DNA of 64,000 bases from a virus, in the IMG/VR virus record IMGVR_UViG_3300032213_002833, positions 1-64,000 of that record. One strand, given 5' to 3'. The notes under the pieces are model-generated. The model searched no databases and was not told where the DNA came from. It worked only from the letters and a program-made list of their open reading frames with translations. Position numbers and translations under genes: made by a program. This document shows positions 9,401-48,997 of the stretch, piece by piece (positions within the stretch are counted from its first letter, which is position 1; each line of letters starts with the position of its first letter).

Positions 9401-12400
9401 TTAAATTGTAATTTTTAGTATATTTTTCAAAATAATCATTTCTTAATCTATCTAAATCAGGATATGTGTTATATAAATCAAATCTTTGTCTAGGATCACC
9501 TATATATTCTCCTATGTTAAAATACCCTAATTGGTCAACAATATCTTCATTTATTTCATTTGTAGGTGAAAAAGCTACCTCTAAATAATTAATATTTTGA
9601 GTATAACTTTGAGATACATTTGCCATTTGAGATAAAGCCATAAATGGTGATAAAGTATCTCCTTCAGGCATTACGTTATTTTCTATTCTAATTTTATCAG
9701 AAATAGTGTTTCTAATTCCAGCTACAGGTTGATCTGCAAATGTATATTCTCTATTAGGAATAAAATTAGGTGTAGCATCGTAATAAAAATCACTATCAGA
9801 AGCAAATGAGTGGGTTGTTATCCAAGAACCTGTTACTTTAGGATGAATTGAAATTGGTGCTATATATTGTTCTCCTCCAACTGAGGCTCTAAAAGCTAAT
9901 TCATTTGGAGCACTATTTAATGAATTTCCCTCAATTGAATGAGGATTCATTGTATAATCTACAAAAACATTTTCATTGATAGGAACAGTATAGTATCTAA
10001 TTTCTTGATATGATCCTGAAAATGGTATATAAGAGCCAAAAAGAGATCCAGTTCCATCATATATATCAACATCATATGATGCTATGTCATATCCTGTAAA
10101 ATTAAGGGCTGAAAAACTAACTGGGAAATAACTAGTAAAAGTATTATTCCAATTAGGGGAAGTAAAGGTTACAGAACTAGATTCTTTAAATCCTAATATA
10201 GTTCCATTATCTCCTCCTTCATATATTTTATTTTGAGAATATAATGTGTAAGTATCAGAATTTTTAGTAACCATTACTGACCACCACCCACCATCATAAA
10301 ATGGTAAGTAAACACTAGCGGTTTGAGTTGAAACACTAGTATCTGGGAAAAAGGTTAAATGAGCGTACTGATAATATGGATCAATTATTGAACCTGAATG
10401 TGAACCACTAATATAAGCAGATCCAGTGTATGTTAAAGTAACAGCACTACCTCCATCTCCATACCATAAACTTTGAGAATAAGGGATATTTGTTTGAGAT
10501 AACCCTTCAGTTTTAAATCTAAACATTAGGGTAGCAGGAACATCATTTGGAGCATTCCAAGAAGTATTTAAACTCCAAGAAGATGAAATAAAATTACTTC
10601 CTGAGGTATTGAAGGCATAATTAAATTCATTTTGCCAGTAATCCCAATCGTTTGTGTTTACTTTATCTTTACCACCATATTCATTAATTCTTAATATAGT
10701 ATCAGGAACACCATATGAAGTGATTAAAGCGCGTAAACCAGGTAAAGTACCTTTTGTTTTAAGTAGATATGGTATGTTGTGGTAAATGCGTTTATATAAC
10801 GATTTATTTACATCATCTAACGGTATATAATTGTTAGATGCTGAAATTAAAACATCAACATATTCAAATCCAGAAGGTGTAGGTAAAGATCCTGTTATGT
10901 TTGGAAAAGGGAATAAACCACCTTCAGGAGTTAAACCTAAAAATGCTGTATATAAATCTTCATTTGAAAAATTATTTTGATATAATTTAACACCAAAATC
11001 ACGAATTGCATCAGCAACTATATCATTTGAGATACCGTAATATAAACGATTGTCAGCATTATATTTATTGGTTATATCTTTATAATAAATCCAAATGTTA
11101 TCATAATGTTGGCCAACCATACTAACAAATAACTCATATGGTTCATTATCTGAGTCATCTCTTAAATATTCTGGGATGGAAAATAACAGATTATCTTTAT
11201 TATTGTTATCATATGTTGAAGCTGAGAGGATTATTCCTCCGTAAATTGGGCTGTTTTCGTTTAAACTTCCAAACCAAGAATTTACTTGGGTACTTCCTAT
11301 TTTAGCTAATTCATATGGTTGTACTGATGTTGTTTTAGGCCAAGCATATTGACTATTATCATAGTATAAGAAATACTCATAACCATCAAAATTGGTTATT
11401 AAATTGTTTATCTTAGCTTCATATACTGCTTTACTACTACTTATTTCAGTAGGGGATGAAGTTGTTGAATTTAGTAAAGCTATAGAAGAAGAATATTGTT
11501 CTATTAAATCTACTTTATAATAAAAATTTTCTAAACGGGTTTGAGCCGAACTAAAATGAATAAAATTTGAAAAATTTGTATAATCTACATTTATATCAAT
11601 TTCTTTTTCTTCAAGTAAACTATTAATTTGATTAACAGAACTAGTTAAAGAAGTTGAAATTAAATCTGAAAATGATAAAGGTAAAGTAGAATTATTAATT
11701 TGGTCTTTTAGTGGTAAATTAAAATTAGGTCCTCCTATTTGAATTGAATCTACTACTTGGATAGGCTCATCTTGAAAATCTACTTGATATGCTAATGGAT
11801 CTTCTAAAAATGTTGTTATATATAATGTACTATTTACATTAAAATTAAAAGGAAGAGGTTCATATAATTTAACTAATATAGTAGGATTATTAATATCCTG
11901 GTCATCTAGTTGGATATTATTAGCTATAATATATTGATTGTCTCCAAACCCTAAATAAAAATCAATAAAGTAAGGAGAATTTTCTCTTTCTCGAACAAAA
12001 AGAGTAGTTTGTTCTATTATTCCTAATAGATCTAATTCTGTACTATCTAATCTTAATTCTGTTCTATCTGAACTAATTTCAGAGATAAATAAAGAATTTG
12101 GGGTAGTACCTATTTTAGGGGTTAAAAAGTTATAATATGTTATATATTGACCAATATTATATCCTCTATCAAAAAGACTTTTTTCAGGGTCTAATATTAA
12201 ATTAGATATTACTCCTGGTTGGTTGTTAAAATTTGTTGGGAGGGTATATTCTTTAAAATCAAAAACAGAAGTTAATACATTTTTATTAACATCTAAAACT
12301 ATAAATTCAATTTTACTATTAGTACCTAAAAATGTATCTAAACTAAATTGAGGTATTAAACTTACCTGTGAAGATTGGTAGGTTTGAAGTTGAAATGAGT

Positions 12401-12431
12401 TTGGGTCAATTTGGGTTATTATGGTTGCCAT
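6477..12431 (-). CDS. Giant tail/baseplate protein (1984 aa)
   Basis: The largest gene in the window. The N-terminal third is helical and mixed, and it contains the segment LKTKGTLPGLRALITSYGVP near residue 560. A LamG/concanavalin-like jelly-roll region follows (residues ~610-760, with WWSVMVTKNSDTYTLYSQNK), then long Ser/Tyr/Asn-rich beta regions. It begins directly after the 119-residue gene, downstream of the gp6-like wedge gene. That is the place occupied by gp7 and gp8 in T4, so it may be a wedge protein fused to fibre-like modules, but no motif proves this. The glycan-binding-like region suggests contact with the cell surface. Confidence 0.65.
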   Translation of the reverse strand: MATIITQIDPNSFQLQTYQSSQVSLIPQFSLDTFLGTNSKIEFIVLDVNKNVLTSVFDFKEYTLPTNFNNQPGVISNLILDPEKSLFDRGYNIGQYITYYNFLTPKIGTTPNSLFISEISSDRTELRLDSTELDLLGIIEQTTLFVRERENSPYFIDFYLGFGDNQYIIANNIQLDDQDINNPTILVKLYEPLPFNFNVNSTLYITTFLEDPLAYQVDFQDEPIQVVDSIQIGGPNFNLPLKDQINNSTLPLSFSDLISTSLTSSVNQINSLLEEKEIDINVDYTNFSNFIHFSSAQTRLENFYYKVDLIEQYSSSIALLNSTTSSPTEISSSKAVYEAKINNLITNFDGYEYFLYYDNSQYAWPKTTSVQPYELAKIGSTQVNSWFGSLNENSPIYGGIILSASTYDNNNKDNLLFSIPEYLRDDSDNEPYELFVSMVGQHYDNIWIYYKDITNKYNADNRLYYGISNDIVADAIRDFGVKLYQNNFSNEDLYTAFLGLTPEGGLFPFPNITGSLPTPSGFEYVDVLISASNNYIPLDDVNKSLYKRIYHNIPYLLKTKGTLPGLRALITSYGVPDTILRINEYGGKDKVNTNDWDYWQNEFNYAFNTSGSNFISSSWSLNTSWNAPNDVPATLMFRFKTEGLSQTNIPYSQSLWYGDGGSAVTLTYTGSAYISGSHSGSIIDPYYQYAHLTFFPDTSVSTQTASVYLPFYDGGWWSVMVTKNSDTYTLYSQNKIYEGGDNGTILGFKESSSVTFTSPNWNNTFTSYFPVSFSALNFTGYDIASYDVDIYDGTGSLFGSYIPFSGSYQEIRYYTVPINENVFVDYTMNPHSIEGNSLNSAPNELAFRASVGGEQYIAPISIHPKVTGSWITTHSFASDSDFYYDATPNFIPNREYTFADQPVAGIRNTISDKIRIENNVMPEGDTLSPFMALSQMANVSQSYTQNINYLEVAFSPTNEINEDIVDQLGYFNIGEYIGDPRQRFDLYNTYPDLDRLRNDYFEKYTKNYNLTDFIRLIKFFDNSLFKMIRDFVPARTSLASGIIIKQHLLERNKYPQPQMEWEDLDISGTLKPQWNDYEPGTVEHFEGGAGGVVNPFNYLNNTSQSWNETFDTPLGTVLMLHDDQDEFYNGEYSGSTIIVSNGVLNEPYPLNIQSFNYKQVHYYGTSSVEDSIFENNFLNSKTAPKSGEILFFNKKTSTVIPLFPPSPPITISFYATKYLKIAKVDCSGSENNVALENLNKVLIYNSISSSYTEYDLELLNEKSTYYLYGTTKFYNSSSLPNQVLDYYTLSLLSNSYQFPPGRNQMIIDSWNVEFGDTLSYFDTSSGILTFGNTPNTPISITASLSTSGSIPIFGKVSLTQLRNGVESSLSSKFHDLNTLTYSSLSSSVYPIQGDQYYLKLTRGSYYSGFVDIVSGIFEVTQSRAVITSSCDPVVIFEPYVTFPNFYNSDENALLNNVEDNRLSQNFQKVDYVTNLLTPTNFTQIINDNAQKAAVQDSNYTLKRNIIPRYKGSKSTSQKINKWTKGDTGTFGKIPTAENLKSYVAYGEMGGSWAPEKMNASSFQIKYLIDETGNIVTPNLSPNSLQTNQGTFITGERFKINSTIPGSGEATEYRKVIRGGARLEPILYTQSGSTPGAQWNTTMSFEDIIPSDVGAVGNYTALFRKSSQNLPSPETEYLINFNTAIYGGSYLASSGYQVPLNALQDGINLTFETQLNVQTYTITGNSPSSGIIYKIIIKNTTTNTEVGSVEYEIATGNINLQITVNTSQLNANDIYNVYVTWYNYDTGIPTTSLTSIINPPNSYLKVTQYPLYTQPITSSGINSIWGYVDTTNYPYVITSSNQTLVELYDSNVRQIDISGSGFNSIALPWSIKYADEFRFEGREDFTYQVGKIFGPADSGSARITQTGSIEVHFNADLPVSASSSVFNLDHFLIRRYVDDASQIVFEGFKPINSVGPYIITPEYIVPELNKNIDVFVADLTQKGLL

Positions 12432-12434
12432 TTA

Positions 12435-12794
12435 TTAAAAAATAGATGAGGTAACTCCTGTTTGTAATTGGATAACTTGTTTTTGAGAATCTAATAGTTC
12501 AATTCTTAATTGAGCTATTTCCTCTTGTAAAAGTGTAATTTCTTCTAAATTAGAAGAAAAATTAATATATTCACTGCTTTTTTTAATTAAAAATTCATGC
12601 GAATTAGATTCTCCAAATTCAGGAATAACATAAAATAAATTATTGTAAAGATCAAAAAAATCTTCAATAGTTGGTTGAGTTTGGATTTGTTGTTGGATTG
12701 GTTGAATTCCTAATTGAGTAAATGAAGTATTTATTACTTTAGAGTAATCTTCTTTACTATAAAAAATTTTATTAAACTTTACATTTTCACTCAT
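12435..12794 (-). CDS. Small baseplate-region protein with C-terminal coiled coil
   Basis: A 119-residue protein. Residues ~75-112 form a Leu/Ile/Glu/Gln-rich heptad-like segment (EEITLLQEEIAQLRIELLDS) typical of a coiled coil. Its start overlaps by 1 nt the end of the upstream 392-residue gene, and the giant gene begins 4 nt after its end, so it is translated as part of the tail operon. It could be a chaperone or trimerisation partner of a tail protein; this is inference. Confidence 0.55.
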   Translation of the reverse strand: MSENVKFNKIFYSKEDYSKVINTSFTQLGIQPIQQQIQTQPTIEDFFDLYNNLFYVIPEFGESNSHEFLIKKSSEYINFSSNLEEITLLQEEIAQLRIELLDSQKQVIQLQTGVTSSIF

Positions 12795-27997: not shown

Positions 27998-28001
27998 TTA
28001 A

Positions 28002-28208
28002 CTATTCAACAATAAAATTTAACTCACAATCACCTTTAATTTCAATAATTTCATAACTTCCATCTAATTTCATTTCATTAACCAATTCATCAAAATCAAA
28101 TAATTCAAACATATCACCAAAATTTTCAACAAATTCCTCTTTAGAGTCATAAACAGTCATACCAAAATTTTCCTCTAAATAACAACAAATAAATTTACTT
28201 TTTTTCAT
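28002..28208 (-). CDS. Hypothetical acidic protein (68 aa)
   Basis: Begins MKKSKFICCYLEENFGMTVY and continues with many Glu/Asp residues; it is probably a compact alpha/beta domain. It has its own promoter module at 28227-28267. Acidic small early phage proteins often bind host proteins, but nothing specific is visible. Confidence 0.5.
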   Translation of the reverse strand: MKKSKFICCYLEENFGMTVYDSKEEFVENFGDMFELFDFDELVNEMKLDGSYEIIEIKGDCELNFIVE

Positions 28209-28226
28209 TTTTTTTACCTTTTTAAT

Positions 28227-28267
28227 TATAATACAATATACGAATTACTTATTAATTATACTATTCC
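28227..28267 (-). promoter_or_regulatory. Shared promoter module, GGAATAG
   Basis: GGAATAG, 20 nt, TATATT, GTATTATA, upstream of the start at 28208. Confidence 0.75.
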
Positions 28268-28271
28268 TTAA

Positions 28272-28394
28272 TTAATTAGGTCTAATAATACAATCTTCAA
28301 ATCTAAATAAAGGATTATACATTATTTCACAAGCCATTTCCTGAATTAAAAGTAATCCCATTAACCTTAATTCCATTTGTTCTTTTTTACTCAT
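28272..28394 (-). CDS. Hypothetical protein (40 aa)
   Basis: ATG at 28394 opens a 40-residue frame (MSKKEQMELRLMGLLLIQEM, then ACEIMYNPLFRFEDCIIRPN). It is preceded by a promoter module at 28411-28451, which supports it being a real gene despite its size. No family recognised. Confidence 0.5.
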   Translation of the reverse strand: MSKKEQMELRLMGLLLIQEMACEIMYNPLFRFEDCIIRPN

Positions 28395-28410
28395 CTTATC
28401 TTATTTTAAT

Positions 28411-28451
28411 TATACTGAAATATACGAAAGCCCTTTTAATTAAGGGCTTCC
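28411..28451 (-). promoter_or_regulatory. Shared promoter module, GGAAGCC, with hairpin
   Basis: GGAAGCC, 20 nt, TATATT, TCAGTATA. The box and spacer form a hairpin (AAGCCC / GGGCTT) that could end the upstream transcript while the same DNA starts the next. Confidence 0.7.
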
Positions 28452-28467
28452 ATTTATTATTATTTTA

Positions 28468-28884
28468 TTAACACTCCCATTTAATCTTTAATATACAAAT
28501 TCCTTCATTATATATACTTTCTTCTTTATAATCTAAAAAACTACCTTCAAAACCACTTTCTTTCATATATCTATAACTCCTCCAACTATAATCATTTAAT
28601 TTATTAAATTCAATTTTAAAACCTTCAAATTCTAAATTTTCTAAATATTCTTTAACTTTATTAAATACTTCATTATATAATTTTACTCCAAAATCATTTC
28701 TCTCTCTCATTTCATTACTCACAATACCTCCCTTCAATCTTCTAACAACCCCTTCTTTAACACCATATAAATCATTAAAACTATAACCAAATCTAACTCC
28801 TAATTCTTTATATAATTTTTCAATTATTTCATTTCTTACTATTAAACTTCCTTTAGTTTTTTCAACATCAATTTTACCAAACAT
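28468..28884 (-). CDS. Hypothetical protein (138 aa)
   Basis: Highly charged and helical; Phe, Tyr and Lys rich with a short central basic segment (GVVRRLKGGIVSNEMRERND). It has its own promoter module upstream at 28919-28959. No family recognised. Confidence 0.5.
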   Translation of the reverse strand: MFGKIDVEKTKGSLIVRNEIIEKLYKELGVRFGYSFNDLYGVKEGVVRRLKGGIVSNEMRERNDFGVKLYNEVFNKVKEYLENLEFEGFKIEFNKLNDYSWRSYRYMKESGFEGSFLDYKEESIYNEGICILKIKWEC

Positions 28885-28918
28885 AACTTTTACTTTTTTA
28901 ATTATTTATCTTTTTAAT

Positions 28919-28959
28919 TATAATACAATATACAAATTATTTTTTAATATTAATAGTCC
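28919..28959 (-). promoter_or_regulatory. Shared promoter module, GGACTAT
   Basis: GGACTAT, 20 nt, TATATT, GTATTATA, upstream of the start at 28884. The usual TTCG at the spacer end is TTTG here. Confidence 0.65.
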
Positions 28960-28970
28960 TTTATTAAACT

Positions 28971-28992
28971 AAAAAACCCCTATAAAAGGGGT
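28971..28992 (-). terminator. Rho-independent terminator
   Basis: On the coding strand, ACCCC / GGGGT stem with a 7-nt A/T-rich loop followed by TTTTT. It lies after the 137-residue gene (29019-29432) and just before the next promoter module. Confidence 0.65.
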
Positions 28993-29018
28993 CCTTTAAT
29001 TAATATTTTATATATTAT

Positions 29019-29432
29019 TTATTTAAACTTCTCTATTAAATCCTTTATTAATTCTTTAATATTCATATCCTCTAAACTACTTAATATAATTTCTTTTTCA
29101 ATATCTTTATATAAACTAAAACTATTTCCTTTACCATCTTTTAAACTAATATTAAATAATTTTCCTTTATCATTAAAATTTCTATTATTTTTATTAATAT
29201 AAAATACTCTTATATCATCTTCATCAAATTTATTTTCTATTTTTCTAATTTCTTCTTTTAATAAATCTACTTTCTCTTCTAATTCACTAATTTCTTTTAC
29301 TTTATTTAAAAATAAATCTTTATTTTCACTTTTTTCAAATAATTCTTTACTTTTATTAACTTCAATTAATTTAATATTATTAACTACTTCATTAACAACT
29401 ACATCTAATTCAATTTTACTTAACTTTTTCAT
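29019..29432 (-). CDS. Hypothetical coiled-coil protein (137 aa)
   Basis: Residues ~1-75 form a Lys/Glu-rich coiled coil (KISELEEKVDLLKEEIRKIE), followed by a smaller alpha/beta part. Strongly biased to Lys, Glu and Asn, as its neighbours. Promoter module at 29465-29505, terminator downstream. No family recognised. Confidence 0.5.
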   Translation of the reverse strand: MKKLSKIELDVVVNEVVNNIKLIEVNKSKELFEKSENKDLFLNKVKEISELEEKVDLLKEEIRKIENKFDEDDIRVFYINKNNRNFNDKGKLFNISLKDGKGNSFSLYKDIEKEIILSSLEDMNIKELIKDLIEKFK

Positions 29433-29464
29433 AACTTTACTTTTTTTAATTTAACTTTTTTAAT

Positions 29465-29505
29465 TATAATACAATATACAAATTTCTTTTTAAATAACCT
29501 ATTCC
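29465..29505 (-). promoter_or_regulatory. Shared promoter module, GGAATAG
   Basis: GGAATAG, 20 nt ending TTTG, TATATT, GTATTATA, upstream of the start at 29432. Confidence 0.7.
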
Positions 29506-29508
29506 TTT

Positions 29509-29820
29509 TTACCATCTAGGTTCAACCCAACTACACTCAATATCACTTCCTATTACTTTAAAAGTATATTCTAAAGGTTCATCATTAAATTCTCCCATAT
29601 ACTTTATTTCACCACCTTCATTTTTAATAAACTCTCTTACTTCAAAAAAGTTTTTAACATCTTCTTCATCATATAAATCATCATCTCCTTTTTCACATTC
29701 TTCAAACAAAAAACTTACTTTACTACCTACTTTATATTCATTATCATTCCCACAACAAAAATCATAAATCATTTCTTCAAAATAATTAATAACTTTTTCA
29801 TTTAATTTTTCATTTTTCAT
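29509..29820 (-). CDS. Hypothetical acidic protein (103 aa)
   Basis: An acidic alpha/beta protein (KGDDDLYDEEDVKNFFEVRE in the middle, ending IECSWVEPRW). Promoter module upstream at 29839-29879. No family recognised. Confidence 0.5.
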   Translation of the reverse strand: MKNEKLNEKVINYFEEMIYDFCCGNDNEYKVGSKVSFLFEECEKGDDDLYDEEDVKNFFEVREFIKNEGGEIKYMGEFNDEPLEYTFKVIGSDIECSWVEPRW

Positions 29821-29838
29821 CTTTTATCTTTTTTTAAT

Positions 29839-29879
29839 TATACTACAATATACGAATTAACTTTAATAATTACTATTCC
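29839..29879 (-). promoter_or_regulatory. Shared promoter module, GGAATAG
   Basis: GGAATAG, 20 nt, TATATT, GTAGTATA, upstream of the start at 29820. The box lies inside the end of the 37-residue gene. Confidence 0.75.
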
Positions 29880-29976
29880 TGTGTTTAGTTTTTCTAGTAT
29901 ATTTCTTTCTATTCCTATAGATGTTAGGTCTAGTAGCTTTGATAATTTCTTCCTGAGTGATAATAATTGTTTTCAT
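29863..29976 (-). CDS. Small basic protein (37 aa)
   Basis: ATG at 29976. The product is MKTIIITQEEIIKATRPNIY followed by a very basic tail rich in Arg, Lys and Asn. It begins only 13 nt after TATATT of the module at 29982-30022, so its leader must be very short. It could bind nucleic acid; this is inference from charge. Confidence 0.5.
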   Translation of the reverse strand: MKTIIITQEEIIKATRPNIYRNRKKYTRKTKHRNSNY

Positions 29977-29981
29977 TTTTC

Positions 29982-30022
29982 TTACTTGTAATATACGAAA
30001 GACATTTTAATAAGCCAAGTCC
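29982..30022 (-). promoter_or_regulatory. Shared promoter module, GGACTTG
   Basis: GGACTTG, 20 nt, TATATT, ACAAGTAA, upstream of the start at 29976. The box combines GGA with the host-like TTG. Confidence 0.7.
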
Positions 30023-40590: not shown

Positions 40591-40817
40591 TTTATGTTGT
40601 ATTGTTTTTTATATTTTTCTATAAATGATTCTCCAATTCCAATTTCAACTATTTCATAGTTATTTGGTAATACAGGTTTACGTTTTGAAGCATCTATTAT
40701 TGTATCAATATCTGATTCTGTAATTAACATGTAGTATTTTTTACCTGTTGGTTTTCTATAAATTACCACTGTTGGTATTTTATTTTCGCTTGGTCTTCCT
40801 TTGTTTTCGTACTTCAT
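40587..40817 (-). CDS. Small protein with GRP motif (76 aa)
   Basis: I prefer the ATG at 40817 (MKYENKGRPSENKIPTVVIY) over an upstream one because it reduces overlap with the lipoprotein gene to 38 nt. KGRPSE is a possible single AT-hook-like core, as in two other proteins of this region. The rest is a small alpha/beta domain. Function unknown. Confidence 0.5.
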   Translation of the reverse strand: MKYENKGRPSENKIPTVVIYRKPTGKKYYMLITESDIDTIIDASKRKPVLPNNYEIVEIGIGESFIEKYKKQYNIK

Positions 40818-41055
40818 TTCTTGATATTTGGATACGAAACGTATCATTTATAACATATGTTTCAGAGGGAAGCCAACTACATAGTTGTTCTTCATCTAAA
40901 TGGACATGTTCCTCTTCTAAGTGTAGAGTATCATTTGTAATTACTAGTAAGTCAAAATATTCATAATCAATATTTGAACCATAAGCATCACAATCAGCAT
41001 TTTTAGTTGATTTACAGGCAATCAATAGCGGTAAAATAAACAGTAATTTTTTCAT
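40780..41055 (-). CDS. Phage-encoded lipoprotein
   Basis: A 91-residue protein with a typical lipoprotein signal: MKK, a hydrophobic core (LLFILPLLIA) and the lipobox L-L-I-A-C with the lipid-attachment Cys at residue 14. The mature part is acidic with a His/Glu-rich stretch (HLEEEHVHLDEEQLC). Small phage lipoproteins in other systems block receptors or exclude superinfecting phage; that role is inferred here. Its 3' end overlaps the next gene. Confidence 0.6.
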   Translation of the reverse strand: MKKLLFILPLLIACKSTKNADCDAYGSNIDYEYFDLLVITNDTLHLEEEHVHLDEEQLCSWLPSETYVINDTFRIQISRNEVRKQRKTKRK

Positions 41056-43920: not shown

Positions 43921-43961
43921 TTAATTTTAATATACGAAAAGAAAATCTAAAATCCAAATTA
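43921..43961 (-). promoter_or_regulatory. Shared promoter module, TTTG variant, contains a stop codon
   Basis: TAATTTG, 20 nt, TATATT, AAAATTAA, upstream of the start at 43907. The TAA is the stop codon of the type IX-like protein gene. The -33 position is the host TTTG. Confidence 0.65.
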
Positions 43962-46031
43962 TCTTATAATTTTCTTTGAAGTACCATCTTCGTACACCTC
44001 AAACACAACCCCTTTAACTTCAGGGCCTACTTCTTGCCCCATTAGATTAACATATTTAACCACTTTTTTTACTTTAATAGTATTATCTAAAGCAATTGGA
44101 CCATATACTTTAAATTGTCCATCTATATCATGTTGAACTAATCTATAGTAATTTAAACCAAAATAATCAATATTATCCAAATAATAATAATTGATATTTT
44201 CAGTTGAATTACCTGCTGATGGTTTATTTGCTATTTCTCTCCAAGTTTCACCATTAATTGATTTCTCAACTATAAAATGAGATGAATTTTGTTCAGATGC
44301 TGTAGCCCATTTTAAATTATTGAATGTTGGGTATTCTATTCCTTCAAAATATAGAAGTTCTACTGGTAATGCTTGTGGGGAAGTTATTGATATTTTAAAG
44401 GTTCCTGTTGTTCCACCTCCATATTCCCAAACACGAATGTATATTGTTTCATATTGATTAAAATCTGATCTAGTAATATAAGACATTGCACCATTTGGGC
44501 TATCATCATCATCACATTCAATTTCTATTAATGCACCAATTGTTCCCCTATATATTGCCATACCAGCATCTGTTATATTCCCAGTTTGTGTATCAAAATC
44601 TAAAGCATATATGTGTTGAGGTACTATAATTTTAAACCAAACATCTTCACCAATGTATGAAGCACATGATGGTGTGGATTCTGTTGTTGTATTTGAAGAA
44701 TATAAATTTGTATATGTTACATAATTAATACCATTAGTTATAGTTAATTCAATGGCTTCACTAGGATTATCATTTGTAGGAGGGGAGGGTGGAGCAGTAC
44801 AAGTTCTACTTATAGTAAATGTACCTGTAGTAGTATTACCTGTTGAATAATGGGCAATCCAAACGTAATATTGTTGTAAATTTGTTGTAGTAAATGTATA
44901 ACTTTCAACGGAATTTGATAGAGCATCATCTTTAGAAGCGATAATTGAAAACGAACCACAAGATATCCCAGATAAAATGACCATTTCATGATCAAACACT
45001 GCTGTTGAGGATATTGTTGTTTGCTGTCCATCCCCAGTAAATTTATACCATACACCAAAGCTAGAAGTTACTGAACTTGCTGGTGGTGTTTCGGATACAG
45101 AATTTAATGTTGTACCAGCTAAATTAGATGTTGCACAAGGTAAAGATGTTGCTCCTGAGCAGAGATCATTTGAGGGGGGAGTTAATGTTGTAAAAGACCA
45201 AGTAGAACATCCAGTTGCTAAACCAACTGAGTTTTGAGGAACAATTTTCCAATAATAAGTTGTTCCAGTAGAAAGAGTTGGAGTATATGAAGTACCAGCT
45301 TGGTTTGTTGATACTAAGGGAGGTGTTGGTGAATTACCAAAATATACATCATATCCAGTTGCTCCACTAGCAGCTGCCCAAGATAAAATTTGATTTGTTG
45401 CTATATTTGTTGCACTATTTGTAGGGGATGTTGGGGACGCTATACATGAAGGAGCAGTTGTAGATGGAGTATATGTTACTGTAATGTTGTCAAGTAAAGC
45501 GGGTGGGGAAACTCCACCACTAGCATCATTTCTCCACGTAAATATTATTCTACGGGTTGTTCCTGCAATTGTGTTTGGTAAATTATATGTTGTTGTAGCA
45601 CATACTGTTTGTCCTTGTAAAGTTCCTAAAAGTACACGACTCGCATTTGAAGTAATTAATGTTCCTGCTGTTGGGGAAAATGAATTTATACAAGACCAAG
45701 TTTGTAAATAATCAAAACTAGCTTCTCCATTTAATTTTCTATTAAAAGAAAGTTGAATATTTGTAGCACCTGAGGGGATAACTACATCTAAATAGGCATG
45801 AACAGTAGATGCTGATGTAATAGTATATGCGTAAGATGAATTATTGTTACTAATATATAAAGCAGAAAGTCCATTACATTGATTAGATGAACCTCTAAAC
45901 CATTTATTCGTTTGGGTTCCATTAGTTAGAGTTAATGAATTAGCAGATTCAAATGTTTCACTAAATGCTGTGGTTTGAGCATCTAGAAATAAATTTACTG
46001 AAAGGGAAATAAATAAAATTAAGTTTTTCAT
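43959..46031 (-). CDS. Secreted multidomain protein with type IX secretion-like C-terminus
   Basis: A 690-residue protein starting MKNLILFISLSVNLFLDAQT, a clear signal peptide. Order of modules: a beta-sandwich (residues ~20-190), a fibronectin-III-like domain (~195-285, with NQILSWAAASGATGYDVYFG), two PPC/CUB-like beta domains with NDLCSG and NDNPSEAIEL borders, then LPVELLYFEGIEYPTFNNLK and a Cys-free T9SS-A-like end (VNLMGQEVGPEVKGVVFEVY). The C-terminal type is the sorting signal used by Bacteroidetes type IX secretion. In a phage this would export the product to the host surface. ATG 46031 is preferred over a GTG at 46052. Confidence 0.75.
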   Translation of the reverse strand: MKNLILFISLSVNLFLDAQTTAFSETFESANSLTLTNGTQTNKWFRGSSNQCNGLSALYISNNNSSYAYTITSASTVHAYLDVVIPSGATNIQLSFNRKLNGEASFDYLQTWSCINSFSPTAGTLITSNASRVLLGTLQGQTVCATTTYNLPNTIAGTTRRIIFTWRNDASGGVSPPALLDNITVTYTPSTTAPSCIASPTSPTNSATNIATNQILSWAAASGATGYDVYFGNSPTPPLVSTNQAGTSYTPTLSTGTTYYWKIVPQNSVGLATGCSTWSFTTLTPPSNDLCSGATSLPCATSNLAGTTLNSVSETPPASSVTSSFGVWYKFTGDGQQTTISSTAVFDHEMVILSGISCGSFSIIASKDDALSNSVESYTFTTTNLQQYYVWIAHYSTGNTTTGTFTISRTCTAPPSPPTNDNPSEAIELTITNGINYVTYTNLYSSNTTTESTPSCASYIGEDVWFKIIVPQHIYALDFDTQTGNITDAGMAIYRGTIGALIEIECDDDDSPNGAMSYITRSDFNQYETIYIRVWEYGGGTTGTFKISITSPQALPVELLYFEGIEYPTFNNLKWATASEQNSSHFIVEKSINGETWREIANKPSAGNSTENINYYYLDNIDYFGLNYYRLVQHDIDGQFKVYGPIALDNTIKVKKVVKYVNLMGQEVGPEVKGVVFEVYEDGTSKKIIR

Positions 46032-46662: not shown

Positions 46663-46667
46663 TGAAG

Positions 46668-46741
46668 TGGAGGATAACGGATTCGAACCGTTGACCCTTT
46701 GCGTGCAAGGCAAATGCTCTAGCCAACTGAGCTAATCCCCC
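46668..46741 (-). tRNA. tRNA-Ala (anticodon TGC)
   Basis: A complete 74-nt cloverleaf: acceptor GGGGGAT / ATCCTCC, anticodon stem TTTGC / GCAAA with loop CTTGCAC (anticodon TGC, Ala GCA), T arm AACGG TTCGAAT CCGTT. No CCA is encoded. Its 5' end overlaps the end of the upstream membrane gene by 10 nt. Confidence 0.95.
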
Positions 46742-47118
46742 AACAATTTATAAAATAGAGTAAATGTTAAACCAAATATAATTCTAGTCACTATTACCCA
46801 TAAAATAACCAACCATATACTATTACATGGAATAGCTATAAACAACACCCCAGCAAATATAAATAAATTTCTCAAAAGCTTAAATAAATGCCAAGCATCT
46901 GTTAAACCTACAAATATTGTTGTTGATCCTGGGAATTTGGCTCCTTCTGTTGGATCTCCATTTTTATATTTGTTTCTCCAAGACAGGGTTGGGTCCCAAA
47001 ATCTTTTATTTCTAAAACAATAAAATATAGAATATGAATAGTGGAACTGTAAAGTATCCATTATTGCTTCAAATAAACCAGCAAAAGCAAAAAACAATAT
47101 GCCTATTAAGGGAATCAA
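46732..47118 (-). CDS. Small membrane protein (128 aa)
   Basis: Three to four hydrophobic helices (residues ~2-20, ~80-98, LFIFAGVLFIAIPCNSIWLV, ~103-122) and a central polar loop with KFPGSTTIFVGLTDAWHLFK. It overlaps tRNA-Ala by 10 nt and the next gene by 4 nt. I associate the F-x-D-x-W-H-x-x-K segment with small phage/bacterial membrane proteins, function unknown. Confidence 0.55.
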   Translation of the reverse strand: MIPLIGILFFAFAGLFEAIMDTLQFHYSYSIFYCFRNKRFWDPTLSWRNKYKNGDPTEGAKFPGSTTIFVGLTDAWHLFKLLRNLFIFAGVLFIAIPCNSIWLVILWVIVTRIIFGLTFTLFYKLLGD

Positions 47119-47297
47119 TGTTTTTTTCTATTTTGAATGTAGTAAACTAAATTTGCTACAAAACCTCCATACACTGCAATAAAAGTGGAGATTTTTAAGT
47201 ACCAACTATCAAGATATCCATTTGCTAACCAAAATGGCCATAAAATACACATTACACCTAAAAATACAATTGCTAATATGCTAGTTATGTTATTCAT
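47115..47297 (-). CDS. Small two-helix membrane protein (60 aa)
   Basis: The start is placed at 47297 (MNNITSILAIVFLGVMCILW); a longer frame would begin inside tRNA-Ser. Two transmembrane helices and a basic end (YIQNRKKH). An AATATTTATA element lies 3 nt upstream, as before late genes. Confidence 0.55.
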   Translation of the reverse strand: MNNITSILAIVFLGVMCILWPFWLANGYLDSWYLKISTFIAVYGGFVANLVYYIQNRKKH

Positions 47298-47300
47298 GTT

Positions 47301-47310
47301 TATAAATATT
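47301..47310 (-). promoter_or_regulatory. AATATTTATA late-gene element
   Basis: Plus-strand TATAAATATT 3 nt before the start at 47297 and 3 nt after tRNA-Ser. Confidence 0.35.
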
Positions 47311-47313
47311 AAG

Positions 47314-47400
47314 CGGAAGTGGTAGGATTCGAACCTACGGAACCCTTTCGAGTTCACTAGTTTTCAAGACTAGCCTTTTAAGCCGCTCAAGCACACTTCC
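47314..47400 (-). tRNA. tRNA-Ser (anticodon TGA)
   Basis: An 87-nt class II tRNA: acceptor GGAAGTG / CACTTCC, anticodon stem CTAGT / ACTAG with loop CTTGAAA (anticodon TGA, Ser UCA), a long variable arm and T arm GTAGG TTCGAAT CCTAC. Class II shape supports Ser. Confidence 0.95.
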
Positions 47401-47403
47401 ATT

Positions 47404-47412
47404 TATAAATAT
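47404..47412 (-). promoter_or_regulatory. ATATTTATA element between tRNAs
   Basis: Plus-strand TATAAATAT between tRNA-Leu and tRNA-Ser. It could be a start point for tRNA-Ser and the following gene, or only spacer. Confidence 0.3.
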
Positions 47413-47417
47413 GTTAG

Positions 47418-47501
47418 TACTCGGAGTGGGACTTGAACCCACACGACCAACTGGCCAACAGATTTTAAGTCTGTCTTGTCTACCATTTCCAACATCCGAG
47501 C
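47418..47501 (-). tRNA. tRNA-Leu (anticodon TAA)
   Basis: An 84-nt class II tRNA: acceptor GCTCGGA / TCCGAGT, anticodon stem ACAGA / TCTGT with loop CTTAAAA (anticodon TAA, Leu UUA), long variable arm, T arm GTGGG TTCAAGT CCCAC. UUA is expected to be a frequent codon in such an AT-rich phage. Confidence 0.95.
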
Positions 47502-47506
47502 ATTTG

Positions 47507-47580
47507 CGGTGCGTATGGGATTCGAACCCATGACCCCTTGCGTGACAGGCAAGTATTCTAACCAACTGAACTAACGCACC
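47507..47580 (-). tRNA. tRNA-Asp (anticodon GTC)
   Basis: A 74-nt cloverleaf: acceptor GGTGCGT / ACGCACC, anticodon stem CTTGC / GCAAG with loop CTGTCAC (anticodon GTC, Asp), T arm ATGGG TTCGAAT CCCAT, discriminator G as typical for Asp. Confidence 0.95.
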
Positions 47581-47584
47581 TTTG

Positions 47585-47657
47585 AGCCGATGGAGGGATT
47601 CGAACCCCCGACCTACTGATTACAAATCAGTTGCTCTACCAGCTGAGCTACATCGGC
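47585..47657 (-). tRNA. tRNA-Thr (anticodon TGT)
   Basis: A 73-nt cloverleaf: acceptor GCCGATG / CATCGGC, anticodon stem ACTGA / TCAGT with loop TTTGTAA (anticodon TGT, Thr ACA), T arm CGGGG TTCGAAT CCCTC. Its first base directly follows the U tract of the hairpin upstream. Confidence 0.95.
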
Positions 47658-47704
47658 AAAAAACCCCTAGTAGTATTCCAAGCGTCCTTGGCACTTGCTA
47701 GGGG
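47658..47704 (-). terminator. Terminator-like hairpin abutting tRNA-Thr
   Basis: On the coding strand CCCCTAG / CTAGGGG, with an inner CCAAG / CTTGG hairpin, followed by TTTTTT. The T run ends exactly where tRNA-Thr begins, with no room for a promoter. It is either a leaky terminator of the RNA upstream or a processing element. Confidence 0.65.
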
Positions 47705-48040
47705 GTGATACTTGGTTATAGGGTTGTCTATGAAGGCACCGTCGCGCACCCATAAAGCAGATCCCATTTCCCAATATCGAGAAAGACCATCTGAGTGAGC
47801 AGATCTAACGGTATGCCCGATGGTACTTGGCCTACGTCTATCTCAACGCAGGGGGGAGTGTTACATTGATTTGGGTTCAATGTAAAAAACCTTTGTAGAC
47901 TCCAAACCATAAGGTAAAGAGCAACTCTAGAACCGGAGAACTAGAGGATCCCAATGTTTCCATTGGTGGGGTAAAAGACCTACCCTGGTACGCTCGATCG
48001 GGGGCACCCCAGTCCAGAAGCGTGGTAGGTACTGTCAAAC
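47705..48040 (-). ncRNA. Putative structured noncoding RNA
   Basis: About 340 nt without a convincing gene, visibly richer in G+C than its surroundings. Perfect hairpins: TTACATTGA / TCAATGTAA (47861-47885), CTCTAG / CTAGAG (47925-47946), CCAATG-GAAA-CATTGG (47951-47966), GGGG-TGC-CCCC (48001-48010), ATCTG / CAGAT (47789-47804), and an outer ACCTACC / GGTAGGT pair (47978-47984 with 48024-48030) enclosing ACGCT / AGCGT. A CTGG / CCAG pair could make a pseudoknot. An AATATTTATA element lies just upstream and a U-tract hairpin just downstream, giving plausible ends. Two frames of 60 and 102 codons cross it but ignore this structure. Confidence 0.6.
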
Positions 48041-48393
48041 TATAAATATTGTTTAAGTAATTCTCCTTTATAGTGTTTTTCATATGTTCCTCGAGGATCA
48101 TCATAATATATTGCCATATACTTTGCCAATTTATCAAATGATTCAAATACAAATGTTTGACAACCAACACTAACAATAAACCCATTATGTACGTGTTTAA
48201 TGGTTACATCATACTGGGCTAATTTATCATTCATGTCTACAACAGGCATTGGTCTGCAATCTTCTTCTCTCTCATATGCTTCAAGTGCTGGTGTTTCATC
48301 TTGAGCAGATTCCTCCAGGTTGATAATGTCTGCAATTGCGTCTTGAAATGCTCTTCCTAGATCTGCTACTTGTTCTTGTTGTCTTCTGTTCAT
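48040..48393 (-). CDS. Hypothetical protein (117 aa)
   Basis: The start is placed at 48393 (MNRRQQEQVADLGRAFQDAI), after AAGTTAT; a longer frame would begin in tRNA-like element 3. A helical N-terminus, an acidic middle and a beta-rich end (VTIKHVHNGFIVSVGCQTFV). The last codons coincide with the AATATTTATA element of the RNA downstream. No family recognised. Confidence 0.6.
   Translation of the reverse strand: MNRRQQEQVADLGRAFQDAIADIINLEESAQDETPALEAYEREEDCRPMPVVDMNDKLAQYDVTIKHVHNGFIVSVGCQTFVFESFDKLAKYMAIYYDDPRGTYEKHYKGELLKQYL
48041..48050 (-). promoter_or_regulatory. AATATTTATA element before the structured RNA
   Basis: Plus-strand TATAAATATT overlapping the last codons of the 117-residue gene. 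It could start the structured RNA. Confidence 0.35.
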
Positions 48394-48472
48394 ATAACTT
48401 ATTTTATTTAAAAAAGGACTTGTAAAACCCATCTCCATTGAGGTAAGGAAACTCCATCCAATGTTTTTTGCG

Positions 48473-48596
48473 TAGTCAGGACAGGATTCGAACCTGTAAT
48501 GGTTGTTAGTGGCTTTGTTGACGGGCGGTACAGCTTCCACACTGCATCTCCCAATACCAATTCTAACTCAGCGTCTACCAATTACGCCACCTGACT
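48473..48596 (-). tRNA. tRNA-like element 3 with extended middle
   Basis: A 7-bp acceptor (AGTCAGG / CCTGACT), a canonical D arm (GCGT / ACGC with AATTGGTAG) and T arm (ACAGG TTCGAAT CCTGT), so both ends look like a real tRNA-Leu-type gene. The part between D arm and T arm is ~73 nt, versus ~30-35 in a class II tRNA. A GTTAG / CTAAC pair would close a 54-nt loop in place of the anticodon loop. It contains a 12-nt match to the 16S rRNA decoding region. It may be an interrupted tRNA, a fusion or a tRNA-like RNA. Confidence 0.55.
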
Positions 48597-48695
48597 ATAA
48601 AAACACACTCTTTAGCCTTCTACTCCCAGCCCCGAGAAATTGTATATAGCTTAGCCCGCCTCACCGCTGTGTGGGAACTGAAGTTTATGTGTTTG
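48597..48695 (-). other. RNA-like segment closed by a 7-bp stem
   Basis: AAACACA / TGTGTTT (48601-48607 with 48688-48694) encloses ~80 nt of G+C-richer sequence between tRNA-like elements 4 and 3. It contains no reading frame of note. Possibly another small stable RNA of the cluster. Confidence 0.35.
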
Positions 48696-48760
48696 TAACC
48701 AGGAAGGGACTCGAACCCTTTGCAGCATTAGGACGTTTCCCCGTACGCCAAACCCTGGTT
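48696..48760 (-). tRNA. tRNA-like element 4, short
   Basis: A 7-bp acceptor (AACCAGG / CCTGGTT) and a full T arm (AAGGG TTCGAGT CCCTT). Only 33 nt lie between them, enough for one arm (GCGT / ACGT with ACGGGGAA), so a normal D arm and anticodon arm cannot both exist. 65 nt overall. Probably a truncated or derived tRNA. A 49-codon frame runs through it but is taken as chance. Confidence 0.45.
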
Positions 48761-48925
48761 GGGGGGTGGAGATTTGTAAACCAACGCATGATCACCCTTA
48801 CGTCTTGTTTCTTTTGTCTTCGGCACTCCACCATTGTAAGTACAACTTAACTTGCGCCGCCGTTCACGAATCTTCCGAAATTCTAACGGCTGTTACTGTT
48901 AACTATCGGAATCAAGTAACTGCTG
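48761..48925 (-). other. RNA-like segment between tRNA-Glu and element 4
   Basis: Two structured parts: GGTGGAG / CTCCACC (48765-48771 with 48826-48832) closes a 68-nt segment, and further up CCGTT / AACGG with an inner GAAT / ATTC, plus GTTACT / AGTAAC. No gene is supportable. It may be part of a processed multi-RNA transcript starting before tRNA-Glu. Confidence 0.35.
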
Positions 48926-48997
48926 TATTCGGTATGGGGTTCGAACCCATGCTTCCGCCGTGAAAGGGCGGCGTGTTAACCACTTCACTAACCGAAC
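48926..48997 (-). tRNA. tRNA-Glu (anticodon TTC)
   Basis: A 72-nt cloverleaf: acceptor GTTCGGT / ACCGAAT, anticodon stem CCGCC / GGCGG with loop CTTTCAC (anticodon TTC, Glu GAA), T arm ATGGG TTCGAAC CCCAT. It leads the RNA cluster. Confidence 0.9.

Follow-up and report, generated by a model that had tools for sequence, protein, structure and literature searches.

A modular phage protein with a signal peptide and a putative short-form type IX sorting tail

That a dedicated outer-membrane secretion system should put phage proteins on the surface of a living host is not normally expected. A gene in a 64-kb stretch of phage DNA (the window, part of a partial IMG/VR virus record of 70.5 kb) raises the question of whether the type IX secretion system (T9SS) of Bacteroidota may be used in this way. 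A first-pass annotation had described the gene product, P0001, as carrying a signal peptide and a T9SS-type C terminus and had proposed either display by host machinery or capture of a host gene. Here, we ask what the tail of P0001 is, whether the gene belongs to the phage, and what the protein may do.

Gene, modules, and genome setting

The protein encoded by the P0001 gene begins with MKNLILFISLSVNLFLDAQTT and ends with NLMGQEVGPEVKGVVFEVYEDGTSKKIIR (Table 1). From the N to the C terminus, it consists of a signal peptide, a chain of beta-sandwich modules, an LPVEL domain, and a short C-terminal tail; five modules stand before the tail. The signal peptide is of the Bacteroidota type (MKNLILFISLSVNLFLDAQ, followed by TT) and was confirmed by eye, in agreement with the first-pass annotation. 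Our scripted signal peptide rule was crude, as it missed P0001 and nine relatives whose signal peptides are visible by eye. The rule was passed by 42 of 52 phage family members, compared with 4.6% of other phage ORFs (control).

Table 1. Positions of the P0001 gene, its parts, and flanking elements in the window
Feature	Positions	Strand	Basis
Calcineurin-like metallophosphoesterase, downstream neighbor of P0001 gene	43105..43821	-	PF00149, 6e-17
TCGTATATTAAA, promoter-like element of next gene	43926..43937	-	19 matches vs 1.4 expected
Gene for secreted modular protein P0001, 690 aa	43959..46031	-	Intact open frame; ATG at 46031, stop at 43959 (frame reading, minus strand)
Putative short C-terminal sorting tail (mini-CTD), residues 655-690, KKVVKYVNLMGQEVGPEVKGVVFEVYEDGTSKKIIR	43962..44069	-	Tail comparisons, profile searches, AF2
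LPVEL domain, residues 554-646	44094..44372	-	AF2 mostly above 85
Domain 4, GBD_T9SS_assoc-like (PF23759), residues 416-550	44382..44786	-	PF23759 sub-threshold in homologues
Domain 3, CUB/PPC-like beta-sandwich, residues 291-415	44787..45161	-	Movable module; CUB-type structural matches in modest model
Domain 2, fibronectin-III-like, residues 197-290	45162..45443	-	Sub-threshold match to solved FN3, E 0.11; homologous module in other phage proteins
Domain 1, jelly-roll/CBM-like beta-sandwich, residues 20-196	45444..45974	-	AF2 pLDDT about 70-86 over strands; Foldseek
Sec signal peptide, residues 1-19	45975..46031	-	Sequence reading; predicted cleavage after LDAQ
AATATTTATAA, candidate promoter element upstream of P0001 gene	46106..46116	-	Alignment; kept in four homologues

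P0001 matched no family in Pfam, NCBIfam, or PHROG, and sequence searches of the PDB gave no significant match. Its homologues contain a CUB domain (6.6e-6, in L004), a GEVED domain (in L009), and sub-threshold PPC and GBD_T9SS_assoc matches. Both AF2 models of P0001 were beta-sandwiches, with good confidence for the C-terminal one (mean pLDDT, 83.6) and modest confidence for the N-terminal one (67.0). Foldseek returned generic beta-sandwich and carbohydrate-binding folds with low TM for both models (carbohydrate-binding and adhesive folds for domain 1), and no T9SS C-terminal domain (CTD) was among the matches listed for either. The FN3-, CUB-, and PPC-like labels, which the first-pass annotation had also used, are therefore soft: homologues and a modest-confidence fold model point to them, and no curated model matches P0001 itself. 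The modules are mixed and matched among phages, with domains 1 to 4 found in 8, 13, 20, and 32 viral ORFs, respectively (counted within our own ORF set, near-duplicate loci included).

The virus record contains baseplate and tail genes. With 46% identity between its baseplate wedge protein and the counterpart in immuto, a cultured Flavobacterium phage whose genome has 160 kb, the record is probably part of a larger myovirus genome. The baseplate protein of Microcystis phage Mel-JY01 (L205; PP395634.1:163494-165350) is likewise 46% identical to that of the window phage, and no T9SS tail was found in Mel-JY01. Elsewhere in the window, a cluster of six tRNA genes (Ala, Ser, Leu, Asp, Thr, and Glu; 46667-48997) lies directly upstream of the P0001 gene, GC content falls to 20% with a GC skew of about -0.77 at 28001-30000, and a small putative lipoprotein (MKKLLFILPLLIAC; 40780-41055, minus strand) is another candidate phage envelope protein.

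The first-pass annotation had taken a promoter module at the P0001 stop codon as a sign that the gene is under phage control. This does not hold, as copies of the TCGTATATT element stand upstream of other genes: 27 of its 29 copies (25091-49624, minus strand) are intergenic, mostly 19 to 50 nt upstream of gene starts, and by position they form a clear phage promoter-like class. The TCGTATATTAAA copy lies directly downstream of the P0001 stop and about 69 nt upstream of the first possible start of the next ORF; it would serve that gene, and nothing suggests that it controls the P0001 gene. Upstream of P0001, we considered AATATTTATAA as a late promoter. Seven of 12 TATTTATAA copies are intergenic (P of about 0.01 versus AT-only words), and with the enrichment weak after this AT control, we leave the element as a lead.

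The short tail and its relation to T9SS sorting domains

In Bacteroidota, the LPVEL domain stands before T9SS sorting domains (78 bacterial and at least 80 phage loci). Searching with the C-terminal 137 residues of P0001, we obtained confirmed matches in 95 stretches of IMG/VR contigs and in 102 from bacteria and kept 80 of each. The tail following the LPVEL domain was 46 to 48 aa long in 67 of 69 nonredundant phage proteins, a proportion that is no unbiased census, since the query by which both the phage and the bacterial sets were ranked itself included the short tail. In 87 of 92 bacterial proteins, the tail was 81 to 102 aa long and ended in a canonical CTD; four others had a short tail, and the fifth (60 residues) stops at a contig end.

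Phages also encode subtilases with such tails. A subtilase was encoded in 12 of 55 phage records, mostly within about 100 to 500 bp of the family gene; in about a quarter of related records, such an enzyme, secreted and ending in a T9SS-like tail, is encoded, usually beside the family gene. S8 subtilases that bear signal peptides and end in T9SS-like tails were seen in L007 (10897-12360, minus strand), L008, L100, L117, L121, L160, L163, L164, and L168; these mostly adjoin the family gene, and their tails are short except in G048/L168, where the tail is canonical. The subtilase relative in the G048 phage ends in a true PF18962 domain. Other canonical CTDs in phages occur in G041, G042, three huge-phage records, and immuto gp015 (NC_055915.1:12691-13422; L218:4692-5423), a cohesin-domain protein with a PF18962 sorting domain (2.4e-8). 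Like P0001, gp015 combines a signal peptide with a T9SS sorting end, in a phage related by its baseplate wedge protein; it differs from P0001 in its cohesin-type domain and canonical CTD. A C-type lectin gene, gp013, lies directly upstream of gp015, and the short-tail gene was not found in immuto.

The named sorting-domain models do not reach the P0001 tail. Comparing the C terminus with TIGR04183-type models, as the first-pass annotation had advised, gave no match: P0001 was unmatched by TIGR04183 in NCBIfam at E values up to 10 and by PF18962 in Pfam at E values up to 1, and TIGR04183 matched 0 of 41 relatives. The LPVELLYFEG stretch, earlier taken as the sorting end, belongs to the module before the tail. 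Direct comparison of the short and canonical tail profiles scored 0.9% and was not significant. The phage subtilase tails, however, gave matches on both sides, to the phage short tail at 72% (E = 3.5e-5) and to canonical type A tails at 91% (E = 9e-7), with reversed controls not significant. In profile comparison, the subtilase tail thus appears to be an intermediate joining the short and canonical forms.

AF2 predicted three strands in the tail (243-247, 261-266, and 271-275 of the C-terminal 276 aa; pLDDT of about 90), arranged as a single three-stranded sheet, as for short T9SS CTDs. Such CTDs are known from Prevotella intermedia and were described as seen in no other species; they are 43 to 55 aa long with a GxY motif D, are cleaved and glycosylated, and are modelled to bind PorV like long CTDs (Ye et al. 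2025; PMC11969387). The P0001 tail resembles them in being short, in its predicted three-stranded sheet, in the conserved Gly of a motif-B-like loop, and in its basic final strand. P0001-type tails differ in having about 36 to 46 aa and a GxxhxxY motif and in occurring in other Bacteroidia genomes (including Fluviicola) and in phages. GxY is absent from the phage short tail, which has G-V-V-F-E-V-Y, and present in the phage subtilase tails. From GQEV to the next conserved G/D, 43 of 51 tails have 5 to 6 residues; the corresponding motif B-D gap is 1 to 6 aa in the P. intermedia CTDs, with motif boundaries defined differently in the two cases. Compared with the type A sorting domain (TIGR04183/PF18962), the P0001 tail shares the post-LPVEL position, the extreme C-terminal placement, and the order of hydrophobic strand, NL.G loop, strand, and basic strand, but it is about half as long, lacks the PNP start, and falls below the model's reach. 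The predicted three-stranded tail also agrees with the report that 22 residues at the end of HBP35 are enough to export GFP (PMC10202324).

We also considered the short tail as a phage-only feature and rejected this, as bacteria bear it too. Of 296 genomes sampled from the class, 19 gave matches to the short-tail profile (A3), and three bacterial genomes had 7, 3, and 13 copies. The bacterial tails form the extreme C terminus of unrelated secreted proteins (e.g., multicopper oxidase-like and nuclease/LRR proteins), and bacteria with both the short tail and a T9SS include Fluviicola. Viral and bacterial short-tail profiles matched with a probability of 99% (E = 5e-17); by this comparison, the two are homologous. 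All 19 tail-bearing genomes encode SprA, which is consistent with T9SS use but discriminates little because SprA is near universal in the class sample (288 of 296). SprA and PorU were both present in the three tail-bearing bacterial genomes tested. In phages, we found no SprA homologue in 13 records and no PorU sortase homologue in 27 records tested; the partial record carrying P0001 likewise encodes neither. As the searched phage records encode no SprA or PorU homologue, the host machinery would be used.

For the P0001 tail, we nevertheless favor the reading as a T9SS sorting domain of short form, one that goes undetected by the named models; in this sense, the T9SS-type C terminus of the first-pass annotation is retained. 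An unlikely alternative is that P0001 stays in the periplasm or is secreted by Sec only, its tail being a folding or oligomerization element unrelated to T9SS. The failure of the curated models and of the direct profile match would fit this, but the tail stands where other proteins have a canonical CTD behind the same LPVEL domain, has been shuffled onto unrelated secreted proteins, and is linked to type A tails via the subtilases.

Ig-, FN3-, and CUB-like modules are common on virions, and many family members lie in tailed-phage genomes. P0001 could accordingly be a receptor-binding or decoration protein of the virion, with a phage structural fold as its C-terminal region. We find this less likely still, given that most family members have a signal peptide N terminus, that the P0001 gene lies outside the structural genes of the window, and that bacterial secreted proteins bear the same short tail. 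Export by the host T9SS via the short tail is the best-supported reading of the sequence comparisons for P0001.

Residence of the gene in phages

An independent 95-kb phage contig, L002, encodes a full-length P0001 homologue of 79% identity, and the gene order matches the window in both directions, the metallophosphoesterase gene adjoining on the downstream side and the same small genes lying upstream. The baseplate wedge proteins of the two phages are also 79% identical. The metallophosphoesterase gene is near the homologue in L009 as well, where the P0001 homologue (10001-12455) occupies two frames, of 406 and 365 aa, owing to a frameshift or sequencing error. The dN/dS ratio was 0.21 for the P0001 gene and below 0.36 for each part, tail included. 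Beyond L002, a search for relatives suggested by the first-pass annotation found the C-terminal module in at least 95 IMG/VR contigs; this organization is not, as the first-pass annotation held, highly unusual for a phage, and phage T9SS cargo had been published earlier (PMC7468147). Of 51 family-bearing records searched whole, 50 contained the short tail, mostly once, and the remaining record is truncated within the gene. Many of the records are fragments, and the baseplate protein is common to only 9 of the 51.

In a tree of the LPVEL domain, which is poorly resolved (94 columns), 49 short-tail phage rows and one bacterial row formed one group, and the few phage copies outside it look like separate gains. 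Bacteroidota-type LPVEL/T9SS genes also appeared in L035, L081, and L086, from bins named Actinomyces, Puniceispirillum, and Bradyrhizobiaceae; these contigs are probably mis-binned.

By its conservation and synteny, the P0001 gene has long been present in the lineage of the window phage. A recent capture of a host gene or an assembly join, as the first-pass annotation had envisaged, is highly improbable: the domain architecture is Bacteroidota style, but the gene and its neighbors recur in independent contig L002 (which rules out an assembly join and, with dN/dS, a chimera or host DNA), its divergence from L002 equals that of the baseplate wedge protein, the phage copies cluster together, the gene occurs in diverse phages, and the best bacterial match to P0001 is 39%, whereas a recent capture would call for a near-identical bacterial gene.

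Proposed route, role, and significance

We think it probable that P0001 is a secreted, modular, adhesin-like protein, encoded by a long-resident phage gene and exported by the host T9SS by means of a short three-stranded sorting tail; its host, export, and function are inferred. P0001 would be made inside an infected cell, presumably of Bacteroidota, and its signal peptide would direct it through Sec into the periplasm. There, the tail, a reduced sorting domain that would keep the B-loop and the last two strands, may be recognized, and the protein may be taken across the outer membrane by the host type IX translocon and a PorV-type shuttle, to be displayed by the infected cell or set free from it. 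The proposal that the phage uses host machinery for display thus remains the best-supported one, through a tail that the named models miss. The first-pass annotation had suggested adhesion, receptor masking, or competition, each of which is possible. Once outside, P0001 could bind glycans or receptors and so change the cell surface, with the result that other phages are kept out or cells adhere. Its adhesive modules, its surface route, and the companion protease of some phages make remodelling of the infected-cell surface the most likely role; superinfection exclusion in particular is possible but rather doubtful.

Phage-encoded T9SS cargo is already known from Cryophage, in which an endoglucanase, a GH39 protein, and a PA14 protein were reported with type A sorting domains (2020; PMC7468147). 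As with P0001, these are Bacteroidota phage genes with T9SS sorting ends, for which use of the host system was proposed, perhaps in competition or superinfection exclusion (PMC7468147). The P0001 family differs in its short tail, undetected by the tested models, its modular adhesin-like build, and its wide phage set. New here are the short-tail form, its breadth, and the canonical CTD in immuto gp015. More tentatively, the short tail may represent a distinct class of T9SS signal, common to Bacteroidota phages and a minority of Bacteroidia, with which many phages dress the infected cell in interchangeable adhesins and a companion subtilase.

If the proposed export of P0001 and its relatives is real, a sizeable group of Bacteroidota phages displays proteins by a tail that annotation pipelines miss, and the T9SS secretomes of phages and bacteria alike are undercounted. 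The canonical tail in the cultured phage immuto makes the question of surface display testable at the bench.
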